In this document: positions 2,997-19,643 of the stretch, in pieces
Position numbering within the stretch: position 1 is the first letter of the stretch
Layout: each line of letters begins with the position of its first letter
NCBI GenBank assembly: GCA_027064525.1
Contig: JAMOPJ010000022.1
Span: 1 to 47,439 of the forward strand
Reading direction: 5' to 3'
DNA length: 47,439 nt
From: Archaeoglobaceae archaeon
GTDB taxonomy: Archaea; Halobacteriota; Archaeoglobi; Archaeoglobales; Archaeoglobaceae
Program-made: the position numbers and the translations under genes
Notes under the pieces: model-generated
What the model was told of the DNA's origin: nothing
Database searches by the model: none
Seen by the model: the letters and a program-made list of their open reading frames with translations, nothing else

Positions 2997-3604
2997 CTTC
3001 TCACGATCTCAACCAACTTTTTAGCCTCTTCCTTAGGATCTTCCGCCCCGGCTATGGCCGAAATTACGGCAACTCCAGCGACTCCAGCCTTTAGGACTTC
3101 GAGGACGTTGTTCCGATTTATCCCCCCAATCGCAACGACAGGAACAGACACAGATCGAACGATCTTTCTCAGCCCCTCGATTCCTATAGGCTCCTTCGCA
3201 TCTCTTTTAGTCTTCGTTCCGAAGACAGGGCCGACTCCTAAATAGTCAGCAAATCTCTCAGCTTTCTTCGCCTCCTCAACCGTATGAGCGGAAACTCCGA
3301 CTATACCGTCAAATATCTCTCTAACAGCCTCAGCGGGCAAATCTTCCTGTCCAACGTGAACTCCATCAGCATCGACAGCCAAAGCCAAATCAACGCGATC
3401 GTTGATGATGAGAGTGGCGTCATATTCTTCGGTAAGCCTTCTAAGCTTCTTCGCTATCTCGAACATTCTCCTCGTGCTCATCCTCTTCTCTCTGAACTGG
3501 ATGACCCTCACTCCCGCTTCGAGCGCAATCTTGGCGAGTTCCTCGTGAGTTCGGCCAAATTCGGAGGATGTTATGAAGTAGACATCGAACCTCAGCCTCT
3601 TCAT
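2948..3604 (-). CDS. thiE: Thiamine-phosphate synthase
   Basis: ThiE condenses HMP-pyrophosphate with the thiazole phosphate to make thiamine monophosphate. The protein is about 218 residues, normal for this TIM-barrel family. Family signatures are the N-terminal VRVIQFREKR, IINDRVDLALAVDADGVHVGQ in the middle, GVGPVFGTKTK, and the phosphate-binding VVAIGGIN near the C-terminus. ATG is chosen over a TTG one codon earlier. It converges on and overlaps the methylase gene. A truncated and chimeric second copy of this gene lies at 17232-17641, so this copy is the likely functional enzyme. Confidence 0.95.
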   Translation of the reverse strand: MKRLRFDVYFITSSEFGRTHEELAKIALEAGVRVIQFREKRMSTRRMFEIAKKLRRLTEEYDATLIINDRVDLALAVDADGVHVGQEDLPAEAVREIFDGIVGVSAHTVEEAKKAERFADYLGVGPVFGTKTKRDAKEPIGIEGLRKIVRSVSVPVVAIGGINRNNVLEVLKAGVAGVAVISAIAGAEDPKEEAKKLVEIVRSYFSSSEPADLSSASS

Positions 3605-3683
3605 CAAAAATTAGATGTAGCATAATGAGTAATAATGGCATCGATTTCTCCAAAATATTGAAAGGAAAATTCAAATTTTTGGT

Positions 3684-3899
3684 ATGGTAATATCTATGGA
3701 TCTGCAGGGAAGAATATACATTCCAGCAGAGATCAGAAGCAAGATAAAGTCGAAGAGATTTAAATTGACGATTTGAGGAGATAAGATCGTTCTCAGACCG
3801 ATTAAGAAGATCGATGAATATTACGGCATTGCGAGTGTTAACAAACATCTGTCGATCGAAGAAAAGACTAAGGAGCTAACGGTAAAAGCGGTGATGTGA
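3684..3899 (+). pseudogene. AbrB/VapB-type antitoxin remnant
   Basis: One frame reads as a small swapped-hairpin AbrB-like antitoxin beginning MVISMDLQGRIYIPAEIRSK, but an in-frame TGA breaks it near codon 29. The rest still reads sensibly (GDKIVLRPIKKIDEYYGI...) and ends just before the toxin remnant. A homologous copy is found near 17.7-19.1 kb. The pair probably derives from a VapBC toxin-antitoxin operon that has lost function. Confidence 0.75.
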
Positions 3900-4826: not shown

Positions 4827-5480
4827 TTATCTTCTGATCAGCTTGACCGAACCGTTCTCTATGGCTACGATTCCCAAATCTTTCAAATCAGTCACGTGCC
4901 TGTAAGCGGTGTGGTAGCTAACGCCTAAGAGATCCGCAAGCTCCTTAATAGACAAATTATCTTTCCTGCTAAGCAGTTCAATTATCCTCCTCTTTCTATC
5001 GGATTTGACATCGATGCGAACATCTTGACCGTTTGCGAACAAGAGCTTATGTTTACCTATCCTAATCGAACGAATCCATCCCTCCCTCTCCAAGGAATCG
5101 ACATGAAATCTGAGCGTGCTCCTGTTCATTCCCGTAACCTCCTCAAGCTCCTTAAAGCTTATTCCCGGGTTTTTCATCACAATTCTAAGGATTTTCCTTC
5201 TCTTGGCGTTTTCAAGCGCGGATTTTACCTTCGTTACTACTATCGGCAGAAACTTCCATATTCCCAAGATTCCCAAAATCGTAGTCACGATGTAGTGTAG
5301 CTTGATCCACCAAGGCAACTGCCAGAAGGTTATCTTTATTTCATCGGGCTTATCGTTCTTTATCAGCTCTTGAAGTTGCTTGTCCGTTAAGTTGGCCGGC
5401 TTCCACTTGAAAGCATAGCATACTTGTAGAGAGAAAGATAACAGCATTAATAGAGCTAAAACTGCTTTAAGAGTTCTCAT
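4827..5480 (-). CDS. Membrane-anchored regulator, two winged-helix domains
   Basis: The 217-residue protein begins with a signal-like hydrophobic segment (residues 1-23), a short polar stretch, and a transmembrane helix at about 57-82 (WIKLHYIVTTILGILGIWKF). Two winged-helix DNA-binding domains follow, at about 90-145 (ISFKELEEVTGMNRSTLRFH) and 158-215 (LSIKELADLLGVSYHTAYRH). The layout resembles archaeal regulators with two HTH domains. Its start overlaps the stop of the upstream secreted-protein gene (ATGA), so the two are translationally coupled. I infer that it senses an outside or membrane signal and acts on the nearby ATATGGTCAGAA promoters, including its own. DNA binding is inferred, not shown. 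Confidence 0.8.
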   Translation of the reverse strand: MRTLKAVLALLMLLSFSLQVCYAFKWKPANLTDKQLQELIKNDKPDEIKITFWQLPWWIKLHYIVTTILGILGIWKFLPIVVTKVKSALENAKRRKILRIVMKNPGISFKELEEVTGMNRSTLRFHVDSLEREGWIRSIRIGKHKLLFANGQDVRIDVKSDRKRRIIELLSRKDNLSIKELADLLGVSYHTAYRHVTDLKDLGIVAIENGSVKLIRR

Positions 5481-5857
5481 GTTACCGTAAACGAGTAAGG
5501 TTGAATTTCTCTAACCTTAGCTCCGTAGACTTTGAAGAGCCAGTAGCCGGGTGTAGCATCGTAGATCGTTATTACAATCTTTCCATCGATTGATCCGTCT
5601 GATGAGTCCGTAAATGTCGTCCAGCTACCGTCTGGTGAATAAACGGTTGGAGTTAGGCTGTTTGAAGGGTTGTTCCAAACCAAGCTTACCGTGAACGTTG
5701 ACGATTTTATATACTTGCAGTACCAATCCACTTCTCCCTGAGTAATAGTGTCGTGCACGGTTTGAATTGAAACCTTCCTATCGATCTTCTTAGCATTAGC
5801 TGTTGATATACTTACCAGCAAAATCACAAGCAATAACAATAATTTTGTAATCCTCAT
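5477..5857 (-). CDS. Secreted PPC-like beta-sandwich protein
   Basis: This is a 126-residue protein with a clear signal peptide (about residues 1-22, ending STANA). The rest is a small beta-rich domain like the prepeptidase C-terminal (PPC) fold: alternating strands with YIKSSTFTVSLVWNN, TVYSPDGSW and a final GYWLFKVYGAKV. It contains one Cys. It is the first gene of a two-gene operon with the membrane-anchored winged-helix regulator and is driven by the leftward half of the divergent promoter at 5881-5976. A sensor or ligand-binding role for the regulator is inferred from coupling. Confidence 0.65.
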   Translation of the reverse strand: MRITKLLLLLVILLVSISTANAKKIDRKVSIQTVHDTITQGEVDWYCKYIKSSTFTVSLVWNNPSNSLTPTVYSPDGSWTTFTDSSDGSIDGKIVITIYDATPGYWLFKVYGAKVREIQPYSFTVT

Positions 5858-5880: not shown

Positions 5881-5976
5881 CATATAAAGTTTCTGACCAT
5901 ATCTTGAGAATTATATTTTTAGTTATTTATTCTTATAAATATTATTTGCATTATATGGTCAGAAGATACTTATAGG
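5881..5976. promoter_or_regulatory. Divergent promoter module, copy A
   Basis: TTCTGACCATAT lies at 5891-5902 and its exact inverse ATATGGTCAGAA at 5953-5964, 62 bp from start to start. Each half-site sits directly upstream of a TATA box: leftward TTTATATG for the PPC/winged-helix operon, rightward TTATAGG for the secreted 389-residue protein. Between them is the shared segment CTTGAGAATTATATTTT. The same module recurs four more times in the next 10 kb. The position suggests an activator or BRE-adjacent operator. Confidence 0.85.
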
Positions 5977-6014
5977 ATTGGGTCTTATGTAATTTGAGGG
6001 AAAAAGGTGGTTGG

Positions 6015-7181
6015 ATGAAAATGTGGAAAAAATTAATTGGTGCGTTGCTGGTTTTAGTGATAGCAGCGAGTGCAGTAAGTCTATCGCTGGCGGTGGAACA
6101 AAAGTCAACTATACAACAAAGAACACAGTTTCCAGCTAACATACCAACTTCTAGCTCTGTATATGTGATAAATGATACTCTAATGAAAAATACTAATATT
6201 AAAACGTTATACAATATGCTACGCAATAAAATTGCAAAAGAGCACAGATTTCAAATAATTTTAGTTAAGTTGAATGAAAATGAGAAAAGAACGGTTTTAA
6301 AAGCATGGTTTAAGGCGTTGGGTGAATTTGGACATAAGCTAAGCGTCATACCCGTTAAAAGAGTTAGCCACGACAAGAGGTCGATTGAAATTGACGATAG
6401 ATTGCTTAAAGCTGACATCGTTGCTTTGTCTTGTAATCCCGACGGTATTTTCGTCGCAGAGAAAACGAACGATCCGACTAAAGATATAGCTATGATCATA
6501 AAAACGTTTGATGAAGTTAGAGCGGAATCAACTAACATTAAGAACTTCAACTATATCGGTTACGTTGGCTGGATTACCAAAGATCAAAACAATGTAGGAA
6601 AGGAAACTGTTAAGGTGGACTACTATATTGCAAAGACGACCGTAGGTGGAAAAACTTACAGATTCTTCTTAGCGTTGCCCCAACATTCCGCACTCGGTTA
6701 CGATGGCTATTCGCCGAAAAAGTTTACTACGATAACCGACTGGAACACAGACATTTGGGAGGGGCAGGTTCTGCACGATTGGGGTCCGAAAAACGAGGGT
6801 TCTAACACCCAAGTTTCGTATACCCTAACAGCTTCGGCAGGATTTCAAGGGGAAGAACCTGTAGCTATAGCTTCTGCGACGATAAGTTACAGCGTTCAGG
6901 GAGGTCTCAAAATCAAGTGGATAGATCAAACATCCCCTGATACAGGATGCGTAAAGACAATCCATGAAATTCCGGATTCTTCAAGCGGTGTAACGTATAC
7001 GGTCGAACCTTCCTCCATAGGTCTGCTTGATCCCAATAAACCCGGCGGATTTCTTCCTATGATTGTGGATCACGATTTCAAAGTAGAACTCCAAAAGCCA
7101 GTATGGTGGTGGACTGATACAAAAACTATTGACATAAATTTCAGTGTTGCACTATACGATAATAGTGTAAATAAAATATAA
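6015..7181 (+). CDS. Secreted protein of unknown function
   Basis: The protein is about 389 residues and I do not recognise its family. A signal peptide (WKKLIGALLVLVIAASAVSL) is followed by an alpha/beta N-terminal region of about 180 residues and a beta-rich, Trp-rich C-terminal half. The N-terminal region has NENEKRTVLKAW, which weakly resembles the NGIEKN...LAKAL region of the halocin-like precursor downstream. The start is the ATG placed after the SD AAAGGTGG; a TTG 21 bases upstream is discounted. It is expressed from promoter copy A. A role as an exported effector is inferred only from its regulon partners. Confidence 0.7.
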   Translation: MKMWKKLIGALLVLVIAASAVSLSLAVEQKSTIQQRTQFPANIPTSSSVYVINDTLMKNTNIKTLYNMLRNKIAKEHRFQIILVKLNENEKRTVLKAWFKALGEFGHKLSVIPVKRVSHDKRSIEIDDRLLKADIVALSCNPDGIFVAEKTNDPTKDIAMIIKTFDEVRAESTNIKNFNYIGYVGWITKDQNNVGKETVKVDYYIAKTTVGGKTYRFFLALPQHSALGYDGYSPKKFTTITDWNTDIWEGQVLHDWGPKNEGSNTQVSYTLTASAGFQGEEPVAIASATISYSVQGGLKIKWIDQTSPDTGCVKTIHEIPDSSSGVTYTVEPSSIGLLDPNKPGGFLPMIVDHDFKVELQKPVWWWTDTKTIDINFSVALYDNSVNKI

Positions 7182-7716: not shown

Positions 7717-7790
7717 ACATTAAGAATTATAATTTAAATTATTTAATCTTTTAAATATTATTTTTAATATATGGTCAGAAGATACTTATA
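7717..7790 (+). promoter_or_regulatory. Promoter module, copy B (right half kept)
   Basis: ATATGGTCAGAA is at 7769-7780, followed by a TATA-like ACTTATAGG, as in copy A. At the corresponding distance upstream a relic of the conserved internal segment is seen (TTAAGAATTATAATTT), but the left half-site is lost. It precedes the broken halocin-like precursor gene. Confidence 0.75.
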
Positions 7791-7835
7791 GGAATGATGT
7801 CTAAGTTATTTTCAGATTGGAGGGAGGTTGGTAGA

Positions 7836-8620
7836 ATGAAGTGGATTAGGTCGTGGTCTTAATAATGCTTGGAAGTATGGTTAATCACGCATTAGCTACA
7901 AGTGTTCCAGCTTGTCCGAGTTGCTCGAAAGTTGCAACTGGAAAATCGAAGGTTAAGGTTGTCAAAATCAATGGTATTGAAAAGAATTAGATTTTAGCTA
8001 AGGCTTTGAAGAATGAAAACGTGAAAAAACTCAGAACCACATTGGCAGCTAAAGGATACAAAATAGATCTGATGAAAGTAAAAGCTTTCAGGGTGGTGAT
8101 GCAATATTGTTGATGGGGGTATTTAAACATTCCACAATGTGGTATCGCAACCGCTTTCAGTATAATTGACCATAGAGGAATTGTCAGAGCAGTAGTTATA
8201 CCCGCAAAATCAGATACTGGAAACCTAATGCTTGTTTATATCTCTGGAAAGAATTCCGTAAAAGTAGGTGCGGTGGAAATTGTTGAAAATGGAAAATTTA
8301 AACAAACAAAGGTATACTATGTTGACTATGATGGCAAAGTAAAAAGTAAGACTTATACAATTCAGGACTTCTCAGGATGTAGTGAGTGTGTATGATCATA
8401 TACATTTGAATGCATTCTCCAAAATTGTGTAGTGCCAGAACCGCCAAGCGTATGTTCGCTTTGCCAACCACTTCTAGAATGTTGTCTACCAGCGCCAATA
8501 CCTGATAACCCGTGTTGCGCTGGAGCAATAATTTGTTACGGAGCCATGGCAACGGGTTGCCATTTGTGGTGCATATATGATTGTGGTCAAAAAGGCGAAG
8601 GTGAAGCGAATGAATGCTGA
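7836..8620 (+). pseudogene. Halocin C8-like archaeocin precursor (broken)
   Basis: The start follows an AGGGAGG SD. The signal peptide needs a one-base shift to read VVLIMLGSMVNHALA; the precursor then runs through CPSCSK, a TAG near 7988, LKNENVKKLRTTLAAKGYKI, a TGA near 8113, and a strand-rich region ending DYDGKVKSKTYTIQDFSG. The last about 80 codons form a Cys-rich module with about 15 Cys (GCSEC, SVCSLC, ECC, PCC, TGCHLWC), split by one TGA at 8392. A D..GCS.C opening and Cys-rich tail after a long precursor are features of halocin C8-type peptides from archaea. The assignment is by pattern, not by search. Confidence 0.6.
8108..8151. repeat. Short dispersed repeat, copy 1
   Basis: TGTTGAT, a spacer with TATTTAAACAT, and a closing GTATCGCAAC match the pattern seen at 11393, 32293 and 42345. 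This copy lies inside the halocin-like precursor and coincides with one of its in-frame stops, so it may be an insertion. Confidence 0.4.
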
Positions 8621-9340: not shown

Positions 9341-9746
9341 TCAATGTAATGCTACAAAATCTTCGGGGATGTAAGCCCTTTCAGTCCACTTAAAGTCATC
9401 CACATTATAAGTTAGAAGGTATCCCTTTCGATTGACTACTGCAGCTCCTATGAAGTAGTCTCTGATTTTGCTCTTGCTTCTGCAAAGCTTTGAAGCCAAT
9501 TCTACATTCTCCTTTGTGAGTGGAACTATTTCGATCTCAAATTCCTTAATAATCCTCCAATACTTTCCAGTATCCCCACCGTACAGCTCGAATCCCAAAA
9601 GGATTTCAAAGTGGACGATGCATGAGATTCTAAATTTCCAGTCTCGCTCTTTAATCCATACCAAGCTCTCAATAGTTTTTCTCATATCCTTCTTCAGCGT
9701 TGAATATCCTGATGAAAACGTTCGAGTCTATGAAAACGTTAGACAT
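9341..9746 (-). pseudogene. VapC-like PIN toxin, frameshifted at an A-run
   Basis: The true start is the ATG that overlaps the antitoxin stop, reading MSNVFIDSNVFIRIFNAEEG with the PIN Asp and a following Asn. The frame ends at a TGA after YEKNY. Removing one A from the five-A run there restores the frame YEKTIESLVWIKERD, which continues through an intact PIN body (CIVHFEILLG, KSKIRDYFIGA, YLLTYNVDDF) to the stop. The single indel is the only defect I see. It may be a recent mutation, a slippage site or a sequencing error. Confidence 0.75.
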
Positions 9747-9981
9747 GGAAGCTTTCCCCTATCGCCTTCTGAATTTCCTTAAGTTGCTTCTTGCTAATTT
9801 TTAACGCTCCTACAGCATCTCTGAGAATTTCCTCGTATCGCCTTCTCCTCTCAACTTTCCTGATTACGAACTCGCCTCTCTCGTTCTTAACGAACTCAAC
9901 TTCATCACCTAACTCGATGCCGAGCTCTTCTCTGACCTCCTTCGGAATCGTCACCTGATACTTTCTCGTAACTTTAACCAT
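9739..9981 (-). CDS. AbrB/SpoVT-type antitoxin
   Basis: This 80-residue protein starts MVKVTRKYQVTIPKEVREEL and has the swapped-hairpin AbrB DNA-binding motif (GDEVEFVKNERGEFVIRKV), followed by a basic linker and a helical C-terminus that would bind the PIN toxin. The ATG at 9981 is chosen because the fold begins there. Its stop overlaps the toxin start. The gene is transcribed from the leftward half of promoter copy C, which ties a toxin-antitoxin pair to the island's promoter family. Confidence 0.8.
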   Translation of the reverse strand: MVKVTRKYQVTIPKEVREELGIELGDEVEFVKNERGEFVIRKVERRRRYEEILRDAVGALKISKKQLKEIQKAIGESFHV

Positions 9982-10030: not shown

Positions 10031-10128
10031 CTGTATATAAAGTTTCTGACCATATCTTGAGAATTATATTTTGATATATATTTTACTAAACATATTATTC
10101 TCATTATATGGTCAGAAATATTAAATAG
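10031..10128. promoter_or_regulatory. Divergent promoter module, copy C
   Basis: TTCTGACCATAT at 10044-10055 and ATATGGTCAGAA at 10106-10117 repeat the exact 62-bp spacing of copy A. The leftward TATA (TTTATATAC) serves the AbrB antitoxin, and the rightward A/T box (TTAAATAG) serves the broken secreted-protein gene. The internal CTTGAGAATTATATTTT is identical to copy A. Confidence 0.85.
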
Positions 10129-10168: not shown

Positions 10169-10923
10169 GTGAGAAGGGTATGGGTTATTGGGATCTTGTT
10201 GGCCATGATGCTGGTAATGAGTGGTGCTATGCCTGTGTTGGGTGCACCAGTGGAAGAAAAACCAAAAGGGGAAAAACAAAGAATCGTCGTTGAAGTTAGT
10301 AAGCGTGTTCATACAAATAGTCCCGTAGAAAAGGGTAGCAAAAAGATAGACGATCTTATCAGCAACGCAGTTAGCACGACTGCTTTAACCACTGAAAACG
10401 TTCAGTACATCCGTACGGACACACTCAGCGCAGAAACAGCCTATGCCACCGCTTATGCCAGCTTCAAACTTTACAAGGTACTCGTTGACGATCCTAACTA
10501 CGATTACTACATCGTATGGACTACATCGTATGGATGAAGGGCACTGGAATCAGTAAAGAGGATGTACTGCTTGGCGATGACGGAAACGTTTATGAGGTTA
10601 GAGTTGGAATCCAGCTCAACAGAGATGCCGATGTAGTAACAGACTGGGAGCCAGTTTCGGACGTAAGTACTGGTACACCGGTCACTATTACTGCCAGCCT
10701 ACAAGTCGAACATAATGGTGTTAGTGCTGGAATATCGGAAAGTTATACACTTTATCCGGGACACGTTGGTCCCCAGTCGCTGACAAGCAATCTATTCAAA
10801 GCACACTGGAATGGAAACTATGAGGGCTCTGTCGGAGTTATTGCTGGTGTAGAATTTAGAGTTCCTAAAGGAACTGGGTGGGATTATACATACTCACTAT
10901 ACTTGGATAGCGGACAGTTCTGA
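10169..10923 (+). pseudogene. Secreted protein gene broken by a 14-bp tandem duplication
   Basis: The GTG start follows AAGGTGATGG and gives a signal peptide (VIGILLAMMLVMSGAMPVLG). The frame runs to YDYYIVW and then stops at about 10537. CTACATCGTATGGA occurs twice in tandem at about 10506-10533; removing one copy fuses this frame with the next, giving YDYYIVWMKGTGISKED. The intact ancestor would be about 246 residues with a beta-rich C-terminal half. VTITASLQVEHNG...SESYTL weakly resembles the C-terminal half of the 6015-7181 protein. No known family is recognised. The short duplication looks recent and could revert. Confidence 0.8.
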
Positions 10924-11500: not shown

Positions 11501-11595
11501 CATATAAACTTTCTAACCATATCTTGAGAATTATAGTTTTAATGATATTTTCTTAAAGATATTATTTGTATTATATGGTCAGAAAATACTTATGG
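11501..11595. promoter_or_regulatory. Divergent promoter module, copy D
   Basis: TTCTAACCATAT (one mismatch) at 11511-11522 and ATATGGTCAGAA at 11573-11584 again start 62 bp apart. The rightward ACTTATGG box serves the following secreted protein. The left half also has a leftward TATA (TTTATATGG) but no minus-strand gene follows it, so that side may be a relic or an antisense promoter. Confidence 0.8.
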
Positions 11596-11634
11596 AATTG
11601 AGTCTAAATAACTTCTAAGTTAAGAGGTGGTTAA

Positions 11635-12765
11635 ATGAGAGTTTGGAAAGGTTTAGTAGGTTTGTTAGTGGTATTAGTTACGATCAGTAGCATGGCAGGG
11701 GCTGCAAATTTAGAAATTAGGAATGCCGACGGGGCACATATTTTCATTTCAGCATTGTATCCAGATGGTTTTAGGCACATAGCAGATTACGATATTAGTA
11801 GCAATGACTATAAAATTGTGCTTAATCTTGCAGATCTAAAAAATGCATGGCAGGAGGAGTATAGAAAGAATGGAACAATGGCTGAACCACTAATTTCTGT
11901 GACGATCGTAACTAAAGATGGTAGAATTGCCGTGGAAAATGTGAACTTTAGATGGGATAAGCTACCCTCATCAAAAGTTATTTATCCAAAGTTTAAGAGT
12001 GTATCGCCAGCTAAGAGCAACGATGTTCATGTAATGGTTCCCGAATACTATGAGTGGCTTGATGATTCGTATGAATGGAGCGGAAACGTTATATTGACAA
12101 AAGTTCAACCAGATAATACCTCGTGGGGAACAGTAGACTACTCATACTTTAAAAATAAAAATGTCGGGTTTAAAGTATACGTTTTTGTGGACACAGACTG
12201 GACAGGAAAAGGATATCACATTATTAGTAAGAACGATGCTGGTGCCCACACTGGCTCCTTCGCAACTGGTCAGAATTATTATGTTTGGATGAAGGTCAAA
12301 TATAGATACGAAAGATGGGGTGTATACTGTGCCGGTGATATATATTACAAAGAATACATATATGTAATAGATTTCTATCCGAGCACAATCAATGGTGGAA
12401 CCTCAAAACCAGAGGACGCTCAAACCGTTCCTGTAGATGACTATATTTATGAAGGAACGAAAACTTCAACTTCCCACGATATACCATACTACACATTTAC
12501 ACTGTGGAATCTTGACCAAAAAGAGGTCGCCATAGACTGTTTGAAGTTTATTGAGGTTCTTAAAACACTTGGTAAAATTAGTTCAAAGGCTGCTAGTGCT
12601 GCAGACGCTATTGGGTTGTTTATAGGTGTAAATTTTGAATACGACGACACCTGTGGATTTTACTGCTCCGTGCGATTATATTCGAATCCAAATATAGCTC
12701 ATCCCGTTTACAGGGCAGTAACTCAAGCGGTTGACACCACCCCAGCAATATACATTTCAAACTAG
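11635..12765 (+). CDS. Secreted protein of unknown function
   Basis: This 376-residue protein starts at an ATG with AGAGGTGG in front and has a signal peptide (LVGLLVVLVTISSMAGA). The body is beta-rich and aromatic-rich (YYVWMKVKYRYERWGVYC, YYKEYIYVIDFYP). The C-terminal part has a small helical, Ala-rich segment (ISSKAASAADAIGLFIGVNF) that could be membrane-active or amphipathic, followed by a CGFYC pair. No family is recognised. It is expressed from promoter copy D. An effector role is inferred from its regulon membership only. Confidence 0.65.
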   Translation: MRVWKGLVGLLVVLVTISSMAGAANLEIRNADGAHIFISALYPDGFRHIADYDISSNDYKIVLNLADLKNAWQEEYRKNGTMAEPLISVTIVTKDGRIAVENVNFRWDKLPSSKVIYPKFKSVSPAKSNDVHVMVPEYYEWLDDSYEWSGNVILTKVQPDNTSWGTVDYSYFKNKNVGFKVYVFVDTDWTGKGYHIISKNDAGAHTGSFATGQNYYVWMKVKYRYERWGVYCAGDIYYKEYIYVIDFYPSTINGGTSKPEDAQTVPVDDYIYEGTKTSTSHDIPYYTFTLWNLDQKEVAIDCLKFIEVLKTLGKISSKAASAADAIGLFIGVNFEYDDTCGFYCSVRLYSNPNIAHPVYRAVTQAVDTTPAIYISN

Positions 12766-15487: not shown

Positions 15488-15575
15488 ATTTTACCATGTC
15501 TTGTAAATTATATTTTCAATTATTTAATCCTATAAATATTATTTTGAATATATGGTCAGAAGATATTTATGAAAT
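15488..15575. promoter_or_regulatory. Promoter module, copy E
   Basis: ATATGGTCAGAA at 15550-15561 is followed by GATATTTATG, the rightward TATA. A decayed left half (ATTTTACCATGT, 8 of 12 matches) lies exactly 62 bp upstream. The internal segment (CTTGTAAATTATATTTT) is recognisable. It drives the secreted metzincin gene. Confidence 0.8.
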
Positions 15576-15613: not shown

Positions 15614-16711
15614 ATGAAATGGGTTAAACCGTTAGTAGGTATATTCTTAGTTTTAGTGATGTTAGGAATGGTTGTGAGTGCGGTAATTATACCAAAGCAA
15701 AGTGACATACCATTAAAGCCACCAGAAAAGCTTACGGAAGGTGAACTACAAATGATATACAAAAAGTATGGGATAACTGAAAATGACATCAAATTTGCAA
15801 AGGGTGTGTTACCAAGTTACTTAAAAGGAACAATCTTAAATGGTAGTAAAAGAGTCATAGTTACAGAGAACGGTAAGGTTCCAGAGAATATAGCTAAAAA
15901 GCTGAAAGGGAAGGGTATAGACTATATCGTGATAAGTTATGAAGAAATGAATAAAATAATTGAGAATGCAAGAAAGAGATATATTAAAAAGTATGGTGTC
16001 GATCCGGCAAATCCGAGAGTTGAAGTGGTTGATGGAGTTGTATTGCCGAAAGAATACGTTAAAATACTTGTTGAACACAGATTGTTAAAACTAGAACAAC
16101 CTACATATACTACTACTGTAAGTAGTTGCGGAAATCCTTCAAACGGGCCGCATGCAATAGATGGTCAGATTGAAGTCCATGTCTTTGTAGCAAAGGATGG
16201 TAAACATGTCCCAACAGAACCTTTTGAGTCAGACACTAAAAACGCTTTAGAAAGATTCGAGAACTTTAACGTAAATGTGCAAGTAACGTTTTACTATGGG
16301 TTCTGGAATGCAAGTGACGTTTCGGACTGGGATGATGCTGGTAAACTTCTTGACGATCTTGCCAAGGATACATCATGGGTCATCGATAGTAAAAACGATA
16401 TCGTAATCGGTTGGGTCAATTACGCTAACCACAATGGCGTTGCATACCCAGATGGAATGTGGGATTTAAACAATGACGGAACCCCAGATTTTGCACCATA
16501 TGCTTTGTGCGCAGTTGAAGCATCTACACCCGACTGGCCACATGACAGCATAGTTCAACATGAAGCATCACATCTCTTTGGAGCAGACGATCAGGGATAT
16601 TGGTGGTGGGAACATCCACCGTGCATAATGAATTATGGTTGGGCATACTTAGGTGTCGATTGTTGGTGCGACGATTGTGGGTCGTGTGTAGCAAGTAACA
16701 TAAATCCATGA
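15614..16711 (+). CDS. Secreted metzincin-type zinc metalloprotease
   Basis: After a signal peptide (LVGIFLVLVMLGMVVSA) there is a propeptide-like region of about 150 residues rich in Lys and Glu, then the catalytic region. The zinc site is HEASHLFGADD at about 316-326, matching HExxHxxGxxD in which Asp serves as third ligand, and a Met-turn follows (CIMNYGW, Met about 339). A Cys-rich tail (DCWCDDCGSC) probably forms disulfides. The start has AGAGGTGG eight bases upstream, and the gene uses promoter copy E. It is probably an extracellular protease made as a zymogen. Confidence 0.85.
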   Translation: MKWVKPLVGIFLVLVMLGMVVSAVIIPKQSDIPLKPPEKLTEGELQMIYKKYGITENDIKFAKGVLPSYLKGTILNGSKRVIVTENGKVPENIAKKLKGKGIDYIVISYEEMNKIIENARKRYIKKYGVDPANPRVEVVDGVVLPKEYVKILVEHRLLKLEQPTYTTTVSSCGNPSNGPHAIDGQIEVHVFVAKDGKHVPTEPFESDTKNALERFENFNVNVQVTFYYGFWNASDVSDWDDAGKLLDDLAKDTSWVIDSKNDIVIGWVNYANHNGVAYPDGMWDLNNDGTPDFAPYALCAVEASTPDWPHDSIVQHEASHLFGADDQGYWWWEHPPCIMNYGWAYLGVDCWCDDCGSCVASNINP

Positions 16712-17231: not shown

Positions 17232-17641
17232 ACCTTTTGCCACACCCAAAGGCAAAATTCTCGCGACGAGCTTCGACATCATCGCCGAGCTTGTATGCCT
17301 CGGGAGCTTCCCCAACGGTATGAGCAGAAAACACCTACTATGCCATCAAATATCTCTCTAACAGCCTCAGCGGGCAAATCCTGTCCAACGTGAACTCCAT
17401 CAGCATCGACAGCCAAAGCCAAATCGACGCGATCATTGATTATCAGAATAGCATCGTAATACTCAGTGAGCTTTCTCAGCCTTTTTGCAATCTCGAACAT
17501 CTGTTTTGTGCTCATCCTCTTCTCTCTGAACTGAATAACCCTTATACCAGCTTTTAGTGTTGTCTCAGCAAACTGCTCATGGGTCCAGCCAAAGTTCAAG
17601 TCGGTTATGAAGTATACGTCGAACTTCAGCTTTCTCACCAT
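17232..17641 (-). pseudogene. Chimeric thiE / rtcB remnant
   Basis: Reading leftward, the first part is a ThiE N-terminal half (IRVIQFREKRMSTKQMFEIA, VDADGVHVGQ, REIFDGIVGV) closely like thiE at 2948-3604. A one-base insertion follows, then the sequence changes at a HTV(E/G)EA stretch into the 3' end of an rtcB gene (APEAYK..DDV and, in another frame, the bases for PLGVAK), compared with rtcB at 21158. The junction uses a short similarity between ThiE HTVEEA and RtcB EEAPEA. The rtcB piece has an internal deletion. It is a non-functional fusion of two chromosomal gene fragments. Confidence 0.8.
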
Positions 17642-17717
17642 CAAACTTAACGCAACATAGAGAATAATAATCGATTATACCAAAATGATTAAATTTTGGA
17701 AAATTTAAAAAATTGGT

Positions 17718-17768
17718 ATGATCGTATCCATGGATCCACAAGGGAGAATATACATTCCAGCCAAAGTA
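17718..17768 (+). pseudogene. AbrB antitoxin, N-terminal piece
   Basis: The frame reads MIVSMDPQGRIYIPAKV and then breaks. It matches the start of the antitoxin remnant at 3684 and, like that one, lies just behind a divergent thiE copy. The rest of the gene is found 1.2 kb away at 18945-19129, so the antitoxin has been split by inserted DNA. Confidence 0.75.
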
Positions 17769-18567: not shown

Positions 18568-18573
18568 CTTTCT

Positions 18574-18678
18574 CACCCCCGTTCAGCTGGGTATTTGTGT
18601 CATTGCGCCCCTCCTCGGCGCTCGTTAATTATTACGATTGAACAACAGAAATGCCTTAGTTTTGAACTGGTTTTGAAC
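18574..18678 (-). repeat. 105-bp inverted repeat, left arm (promoter and leader)
   Basis: I compared this arm base by base with 19534-19638 in inverse orientation and found no mismatch over 105 bp. It contains the operator-like GTTCAAAACC/AGTTCAAAAC tandem, an A/T-rich promoter region, a hairpin with an SD in its loop, a six-codon open frame (MTQIPS) and the SD of the secreted-protein gene. This arm drives the minus-strand gene at 17971-18567. Confidence 0.9.
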
Positions 18679-18753
18679 ATTAGTTTTGCCAATACCAATC
18701 TAAAACAAACATTTAGGATATACCCAAAATTCAGGATCACAACCACACACACG

Positions 18754-18941
18754 TCATCGCCTTTTCCTAGTGCAGTGATATCTCACGTTTTTATTTATCC
18801 TATCCAACAGCCCTATGTCGTACTTCTCGATCGAAGCACACACTTTAGGAGTCCAGCCCTTTTTATTCTTCCATAGGCACTCTGTTGCGTGGATTACAAC
18901 CTTGCTATCTTTTTCCCTCACTATACGACTCTTTTTCCAAA
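18754..18941 (-). other. Unassigned coding-like fragment
   Basis: The minus strand has an open stretch reading KVVIHATECLWKNKKGWTPK and KYDIGLLDRINK. The composition looks protein-like but I recognise no family. It lies at one edge of the inserted segment and is probably a truncated foreign gene. Confidence 0.3.
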
Positions 18942-18944
18942 ATA

Positions 18945-19129
18945 GAAATAAGATCAAATCGAAGAAGTTTGAACTGACAGTTAAAGGTGACAAGATCATT
19001 CTGAAAACGATTAAGAAGAAAATAGAGGAATATTACGGCGTTGTAAAGGTTGATAGACATTTAACGGTAGAAGAAATAGAAGAAAAAGCTAGGGAGCTAA
19101 CTGCAAAAGCTGTGAGGGGCGAGTTATGA
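18945..19129 (+). pseudogene. AbrB antitoxin, C-terminal piece
   Basis: The frame reads RNKIKSKKFELTVKGDKIIL and then LTVEEIEEKARELTAKAVRGEL, matching the second part of the antitoxin remnant at 3684-3899 but without its stop. It lacks its own start and the first 17 residues, which are at 17718-17768. Its stop overlaps the toxin start (ATGA). Confidence 0.75.
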
Positions 19130-19467
19130 TTTACGTTGACGTTAACGTGCTATACTATTATCTAACAGCTCATCCAGAATTTGGTGAAAAAGCCAAGAAG
19201 TATTAATTCGATAACCTTTGCACATCCGCTTTGACAGTCTGGATACTCTACGTTCTGACAAGATTGAGGAACTTACCAGAAGTTCTCGGAGAGATAGGTA
19301 TTACTATGCTTCCTTTAACCTCTGACGTTTTGAGCTTCGCAATGAACGTTGAAAAATTGGATTTTGAAGATGCGATTCATTACGCAACGATGAAGCTGAA
19401 CGGGATTAATAGAATCATCTCAAACGATAGTGATTTCGATAAGGTAGATGTTGAAAAGATATTTTAA
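19126..19467 (+). pseudogene. VapC-like PIN toxin, broken by one stop
   Basis: The frame reads MIYVDVNVLYYYLTAHPEFG to KKY, then a TAA at 19204, then a body that is otherwise intact (CTSALTVWILYVLTRL, DFEDAIHYATMKLNGI, SNDSDFDKVDV). Compared with the copy at 3903 there is a two-codon deletion at the stop. PIN acidic residues are present. A downstream GTG could give a shortened product lacking the first catalytic Asp. Confidence 0.8.
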
Positions 19468-19533
19468 TTTAAGTTTTTAGATCAAACTTAAAAGTATCTC
19501 TCAAGATAACTGTTATAATTCTCATAATTCAGC

Positions 19534-19638
19534 GTTCAAAACCAGTTCAAAACTAAGGCATTTCTGTTGTTCAATCGTAATAATTAACGAGCGCCGAGGA
19601 GGGGCGCAATGACACAAATACCCAGCTGAACGGGGGTG
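19534..19638 (+). repeat. 105-bp inverted repeat, right arm (promoter and leader)
   Basis: Exact inverse of 18574-18678; 855 bp lie between the arms. GTTCAAAACC and AGTTCAAAAC are direct 10-bp units at the start, with TTGTTCAA further on. GCGCC-GAGGAGG-GGCGC (19591-19607) can fold with the SD in the loop, and ATG at 19609 opens a six-codon frame ending TGA at 19629. The SD GGGGGTGGGAG, which starts at the end of the arm, then serves the GTG of the gene at 19644. Confidence 0.9.
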
Positions 19639-19643
19639 GGAGC

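Follow-up and report, generated by a model that had tools for sequence, protein, structure and literature searches.

A candidate archaeal co-component regulator: a membrane-anchored winged-helix protein paired with a secreted PPC-like protein and a recurring operator in Archaeoglobaceae

The stretch of DNA analyzed here (the window) spans 47,439 nt and corresponds to contig C22 of an essentially complete Archaeoglobaceae genome of 1.89 Mb in 53 contigs. It contains a minus-strand operon in which a gene for a secreted PPC-like protein precedes a gene for a membrane regulator, facing a divergently transcribed secreted-protein gene across an inverted promoter module. The features at this locus are as follows.

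4827–5480, minus strand: regulator gene (217 aa), identified by open reading frame, Pfam, alignment, AlphaFold2 model, and hydropathy
Domains of the 217-aa regulator: signal peptide, residues 1–23; outside segment, ~24–60; transmembrane helix, ~61–84; first winged helix (wHTH1), ~91–150; second winged helix (wHTH2), ~160–214
5477–5857, minus strand: gene for a secreted PPC-like beta-sandwich protein (126 aa), candidate extracytoplasmic partner, identified by open reading frame, weak Pfam matches, and a fold model
5881–5888, minus strand: TATA box TTTATATG, 2 nt past the operator
5891–5910, minus strand: operator of the PPC-regulator operon, TTCTCAAGATATGGTCAGAA, identified by cassette alignment and site scan
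5945–5964, plus strand: divergent operator for the secreted-protein gene, with an exact 3' half (ATATGGTCAGAA) and a degraded 5' half
6015–7181, plus strand: divergent secreted protein of 388 aa with signal peptide MKMWKKLIGALLVLVIA and no Pfam family

A first-pass annotation of this DNA had described a regulator with a signal-like segment, a transmembrane helix, and two winged helices, overlapping by ATGA a secreted beta-sandwich gene, with both genes read from one half of a 62-bp module. Hydropathy, Pfam, and AlphaFold2 bear out the architecture. The overlap, in which the stop codon of the PPC-like gene runs into the regulator start, is seen in the reading frames at 5477–5480 (minus strand ...GTAACATGAGAACT...), and the half from which both genes are read is the left one of an inverted operator/promoter module.

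The regulator has two hydropathy peaks, at residues ~1–26 and ~61–86. Its signal peptide (MRTLKAVLALLMLLSFSLQVCYA, followed by F) looks cleavable at a signal-peptidase-like site (CYA/F), and the alanine at this site (A23) is invariant in 14 of 14 aligned homologues. The outside segment of ~40 aa carries the family signature FW[DEQ]LP.WIK, of which the FW-LP-WIK positions are invariant. Pfam places HTH_24 at residues 91–137 (E = 5e-22 for the whole protein) and HTH_11 at 162–208 (E = 8e-16). A single-sequence AlphaFold2 model (m436a6f726c0c; mean pLDDT 79) has winged helices at ~109–149 and ~161–214 and a long helix at 57–103, so that the transmembrane helix runs on into a linker helix. PH1932 and Csa3 are among the best PDB sequence matches of the winged-helix part. 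The combination of signal peptide, outside segment, transmembrane helix, and winged helices predicts a single-pass protein with its DNA-binding part inside the cell, and the regulator joins a DNA-binding domain to at least one transmembrane region in one protein, as is general for transmembrane transcription regulators (TTRs). An apparent PPC-regulator fusion in genome G019 proved to be a stop-to-stop artefact (a 398-aa open frame with the PPC in another frame), and Pedobacter and Thioclava were dropped as sources of relatives, their matches being short and generic to HTH domains (33 and 75 residues).

The PPC-like protein has a single, N-terminal hydropathy peak. Support for its assignment is weak at the profile level and of low confidence at the fold level: the PPC family PF04151 matches the window's protein at E = 0.012 (16.9 bits, under the 25.9 cut-off) and 2 of 14 relatives at E ≤ 0.01 (best 4.5e-6), and the fold model (pLDDT 63) resembles subtilase PPC/jelly-roll domains, ColH, GOLD, and CBM35, with top TM-scores of 0.34–0.46. 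A second PPC gene, faced by an operator left half and with a regulator truncated in its second winged helix, lies at the end of contig C42 and the start of C14 (L043, L046); these ends probably join, since the PPC sequence is identical on both. On C51, an operator left half faces a decayed PPC gene.

The promoter region is built around a 12-mer, ATATGGTCAGAA, which occurs as seven exact copies in the window (0.005 expected in dinucleotide-Markov sequences) and 20 copies in the whole genome, where a reversed control gave none. The first inverted pair starts at 5891 and 5953, 62 bp apart. Alignment of cassettes across genomes identified the conserved unit as a 20-bp operator, TTCTCA-AGATATGG-TCAGAA, with a TATA box 2 nt on. 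The 62-bp module of the first-pass annotation is therefore real by its 12-mer counts, while the unit is refined to the operator TTCTCAAGATATGGTCAGAA plus a TATA box, one for each direction. An inverted operator pair lies directly 5' of the PPC-regulator genes in 12 cassettes, and the TATA box is at offset +2 in all 12. The paired operators point away from each other, with a 12-mer spacing of 62 bp in the window's genus and 46–48 bp elsewhere; this difference of 1.5 turns suggests two independently working promoters rather than one phased complex. The PPC-side start codon is 33 nt past the operator in the window and about 31–33 nt past it across cassettes, where the transcription start would be expected, so the PPC-regulator mRNA is probably leaderless. 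Target genes carry a Shine-Dalgarno-like leader. TATA boxes are weaker at targets than at the regulator promoter (mean 5.9 vs 7.2 of 8 matches, P = 0.0006), a comparison among related cassettes that is indicative only. Further operators and predicted targets in the window are listed below.

7761–7780, plus strand: operator with one mismatch, followed by a frameshifted, decayed secreted-protein gene (to 8560)
10044–10063, minus strand: exact operator, left half of the second inverted pair, before an AbrB/MazE-like gene (9739–9981)
10098–10117, plus strand: exact operator, right half of the second pair, before a secreted-protein gene (10169–10537)
11511–11530, minus strand: operator with one mismatch, left half of the third module
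11573–11584, plus strand: exact 12-mer, right half of the third module, before the secreted-protein gene at 11635–12765
11635–12765, plus strand: secreted protein of 376 aa, predicted target
15542–15561, plus strand: operator with one mismatch, fourth module
15614–16711, plus strand: secreted metzincin/reprolysin-like protease (HEASH..GADD), predicted target; PF13688 at E = 4e-4, below the cut-off

In the window's genome, a gene for an exported protein starts ~30–60 nt after nearly every operator site. Among these predicted targets are three proteases, one a C39-like cysteine protease (PF13529, E = 6e-15) and two metzincin-like and related to each other, along with a beta-propeller protein, a protein with a PPC domain, and NEW3-type proteins. 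The protease at 15614–16711 has a paralogue on contig C51 that is 51% identical and has its own operator in front. The first-pass claim that the regulator controls the island of secreted-protein genes and itself is well motivated, because operators lie directly 5' of both the PPC-regulator operon and the secreted-protein genes; its restriction to the island does not hold, as operator positions make the regulon genome-wide. Promoter regions of the targets are 80% identical and the mature proteins mostly unrelated (one related pair among ten), suggesting that promoter/signal cassettes are reused with new secreted proteins.

Other observations concern the makeup of the island. The stretches 5953–6089 and 11573–11704 are alike from the promoter through the signal-peptide codons, and the mature parts that follow are unrelated. 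Several pseudogenes sit behind modules, at 7769–8560 in the window and also on C2, C42, and C51. Behind the left half of the second module, minus-strand genes at 9341–9981 encode an AbrB/MazE-like antitoxin (MVKVTRKYQVT...) and a PIN-like open reading frame of toxin size, and a remnant with an AbrB/MazE-like N-terminus is found behind a module in genome G042 (L191, 1273). The island is flanked by direct repeats (3292–3727 and 17329–17761, ~14,034 bp apart) that consist of segments of 52 nt at 92%, 262 nt at 77%, and 64 nt at 81% identity and contain the end of a thiE-like gene and the sequence after it, the second copy being truncated. These repeats hint at duplication or insertion through recombination. 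An inverted repeat of 108 nt (18571–18678 and 19534–19641, 99% complementary, 855 nt between) is possibly a MITE-like element or an inverted duplication of a secreted-gene start; no transposase was recognized by eye within 18571–19641.

Co-occurrence of regulator and operator was examined in 55 family genomes using the exact pattern TTCTNA-N4-ATGGTCAGAA. The regulator is present in 15, with two of these copies truncated or broken. An exact operator was found in 13 of the 15 regulator-bearing genomes and in 7 of the 40 without the regulator (Fisher P = 4e-6), and at least two sites were found in 12 of 15 and 3 of 40, respectively (P = 4e-7); these P values overstate independence because the compared genomes are related. 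A mis-spaced control with one extra base gave no exact matches in the 55 genomes. The two regulator-bearing genomes with no exact site, G010 and G013, each carry a site with one mismatch close to the regulator gene; in G013, where the regulator occurs without a PPC gene, this site is directly before the regulator itself. The association of regulator and promoter module proposed in the first-pass annotation thus stood, with no regular occurrence of regulator homologues apart from the module. Operators precede secreted genes with no regulator detected in G017, G027, G042, and G039, and in G017 and G027 the site is still 5' of the secreted gene. G032 has operator sites and a broken regulator, and assembly breaks lie near modules in G042 and G031. 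Site-bearing genomes that lack an intact regulator are mostly relic-like.

Regulator homologues were identified in 156 of 393 genomes of the wider phylum (E ≤ 1e-12), a sample that includes apparent methanogens and haloarchaea, and 57 distant loci, drawn mainly from the best-scoring of these matches, were examined. In 46 of the 57, mostly from methanogens, a PPC-like gene directly precedes the regulator homologue in the same orientation, and the two usually overlap or abut. The outside signature is also kept in the distant homologues, as TFW[DE]LPLWI. An unsupervised Gibbs search upstream of the methanogen pairs found T.T.AGTTnGATGATnnGGnCAnAAA followed by a TATA-like box at many loci (information content 15.9 vs 10.3 in shuffles) and no convincing motif at some distant loci. 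The motif is often a perfect inverted pair, for example TGTCCATATCATCCAACTG-N10-CAGTTGGATGATATGGACA in L065, and has ATATGGnCAnAA in common with the family operator. Within one methanogen genus, five genomes carry 4–7 dispersed operator sites each (reversed control, 0), some of them in front of genes near the regulator that encode lipoproteins or membrane proteins. Because the methanogen motif is not symmetric, two unlike halves replaced a pure dyad as the model of the operator. The regulator/PPC pair is ancient.

The gene pair is best explained as an archaeal co-component transmembrane transcription regulator of secreted proteins and of itself, a reading to which we assign a probability of roughly 75%. 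What is read directly from the DNA is the architecture, the coupling of the genes, the conservation of the operator, the set of targets across the genome, and the co-occurrence; the remaining steps are proposed. The regulator would be a single-pass protein with its N-terminus outside after signal-peptide cleavage and its C-terminus inside, and its cytoplasmic tandem winged helices would bind, from the membrane, the 20-bp operator 2 bp upstream of TATA boxes. Where operators form divergent pairs, as most do, one half would serve the PPC-regulator operon (autoregulation) and its counterpart a gene for a secreted protein. Additional copies around the genome would drive secreted hydrolases and other exported proteins. 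The exported PPC-like protein may bind an extracellular ligand or substrate, or report on it, and act on the short conserved outside segment and the long transmembrane-linker helix, changing the dimer state of the regulator. Activation is somewhat favored over repression, since the operator stops short of the TATA box, on its upstream side, and target TATA boxes are weaker than the regulator's own; repression would instead work by blocking TFB. The combination of a conserved half (ATGGnCA) with a clade-specific half (TTCTCA or AGTTnGA) suggests that the unlike winged helices read one half each. Tentatively, and at slightly less than even odds, the pair may represent an undescribed, phylum-wide signaling system with a dedicated secreted PPC-like sensor and control over the program of extracellular hydrolases and other secreted proteins, in which wHTH1 reads ATGGnCA and wHTH2 reads TTCTCA in the family and AGTTnGA in methanogens. 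Counterpoints to the co-component explanation are the operators in a few genomes with no detected regulator, the regulators that have no PPC gene beside them, the distant loci with no convincing motif, and one left half in the window that faces the AbrB-like gene.

The first-pass annotation had called the system one-component, which is probably wrong: the regulator is almost always accompanied by the secreted PPC-like protein, and this argues for a two-gene co-component system. A partner predicted to reside on the outer face of the membrane is co-encoded, as a PPC-like gene with a signal peptide, in family cassettes and in the 46 distant loci. The pairing nevertheless has exceptions, and the PPC is not strictly required, because G010, G013, and 11 of the 57 distant loci have the regulator without it. 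These exceptions favor a true one-component regulator, in which the membrane winged-helix protein senses alone, through membrane state or its outside segment, and the PPC-like protein is only secreted under shared control, for example as an adhesin, an inhibitor, or an accessory to hydrolases. In line with this, the outside signature FW[DE]LPLWI varies less than the winged helices, and PPC domains usually serve secreted enzymes. We consider this unlikely given that operonic pairing is near-constant across the phylum and that PPC-like profile matches in the 55 family genomes (E ≤ 1e-6) are confined to regulator cassettes or decayed and contig-edge remnants; no PPC-type domain of this family turned up as a secreted gene on its own. 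Beside the 10 generic winged-helix loci of the window's genome, no PPC-like gene was found.

The similarity of the promoters among unrelated mature proteins, together with the decayed copies in an island between direct repeats, would also fit a mobile element or an island for inter-microbial antagonism, with the secreted proteins as variable effectors that the regulator serves. This has a lower standing still: no integrase or phage genes were noticed in the cassette, the PPC-like protein and three secreted targets gave no informative PHROG or PADLOC matches, and many targets resemble nutrient-scavenging hydrolases. A viral origin was rejected with no relative among 2.9 million viral contigs, as was a defense function, for which PADLOC and PHROG scans of the regulator gave only generic HTH or CARF-wHTH matches. 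Least probable is that some other factor, for example a TFB/TBP variant or a soluble regulator, reads the operator as a promoter element, with the membrane protein just a target. Sites do persist in some genomes where no regulator was detected, and the motif borders on the BRE and may extend into it, but it co-occurs with and adjoins the regulator strongly in Archaeoglobaceae-like genomes, has a related form in methanogens, and is constantly linked to no other gene found.

ToxR/ToxS, VtrA/VtrC, and PsaE/PsaF are bacterial co-component transmembrane transcription regulators in which an outer-face partner has the proposed role of sensor and driver of assembly, and exported proteins are controlled (PMC10269533, PMC13042144). 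The archaeal pair resembles them in that a membrane-anchored winged-helix regulator adjoins a gene for a small outer-face partner. It differs in topology, with the N-terminus outside and the C-terminus inside, whereas ToxR has a cytoplasmic N-terminal OmpR-type wHTH and a periplasmic C-terminus; in having two winged helices (HTH_24/HTH_11) rather than one of OmpR type; and in its partner, a PPC-like sandwich encoded before the regulator rather than a lipocalin-like barrel. No sequence relation to ToxR/ToxS-type systems was found, and the differences place it outside the ToxR family by descent. Among archaeal proteins, ArnR and ArnR1 of Sulfolobus acidocaldarius are membrane-bound, have inverted-repeat boxes upstream of the BRE/TATA of surface-structure genes, and activate archaellum and pili genes (PMC6396743). 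The regulator described here shares the membrane location and the position of the boxes; ArnR and ArnR1, however, have one N-terminal HTH, a HAMP-like and sensor part, two C-terminal transmembrane helices, and no PPC partner, and the ArnR boxes (TCGAC-N5-GTCGA) differ from the present operator. With its domain order reversed, the regulator falls outside the ArnR family as defined by an N-terminal HTH and two C-terminal transmembrane helices. The part of a 2023 TTR census considered here finds Methanomicrobia enriched in TTRs and includes archaeal TTRs that, like this regulator, combine a transmembrane region with an HTH domain; the associated (cocomponent) proteins named in that part are bacterial, and it does not describe archaeal partners, operators, or regulons (PMC10269533). 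Csa3 and other solved archaeal wHTH proteins are soluble, with no transmembrane region or PPC partner, and Csa3 carries a CARF sensor. We found no description of the pair or its operator in the open-access literature searched; an earlier mention in subscription papers is possible.

To our knowledge, few routes are known by which archaea relay an outside signal to a promoter, and we know of no partner, operator, or target for most archaeal transmembrane transcription regulators. The present case gives a candidate sensor, a 20-bp operator, and a target list from sequence alone, and it recurs in methanogens, some of which are genetically tractable. How archaea decide to secrete hydrolases becomes directly testable, as does the possibility that co-component signaling arose independently outside Gram-negative bacteria.
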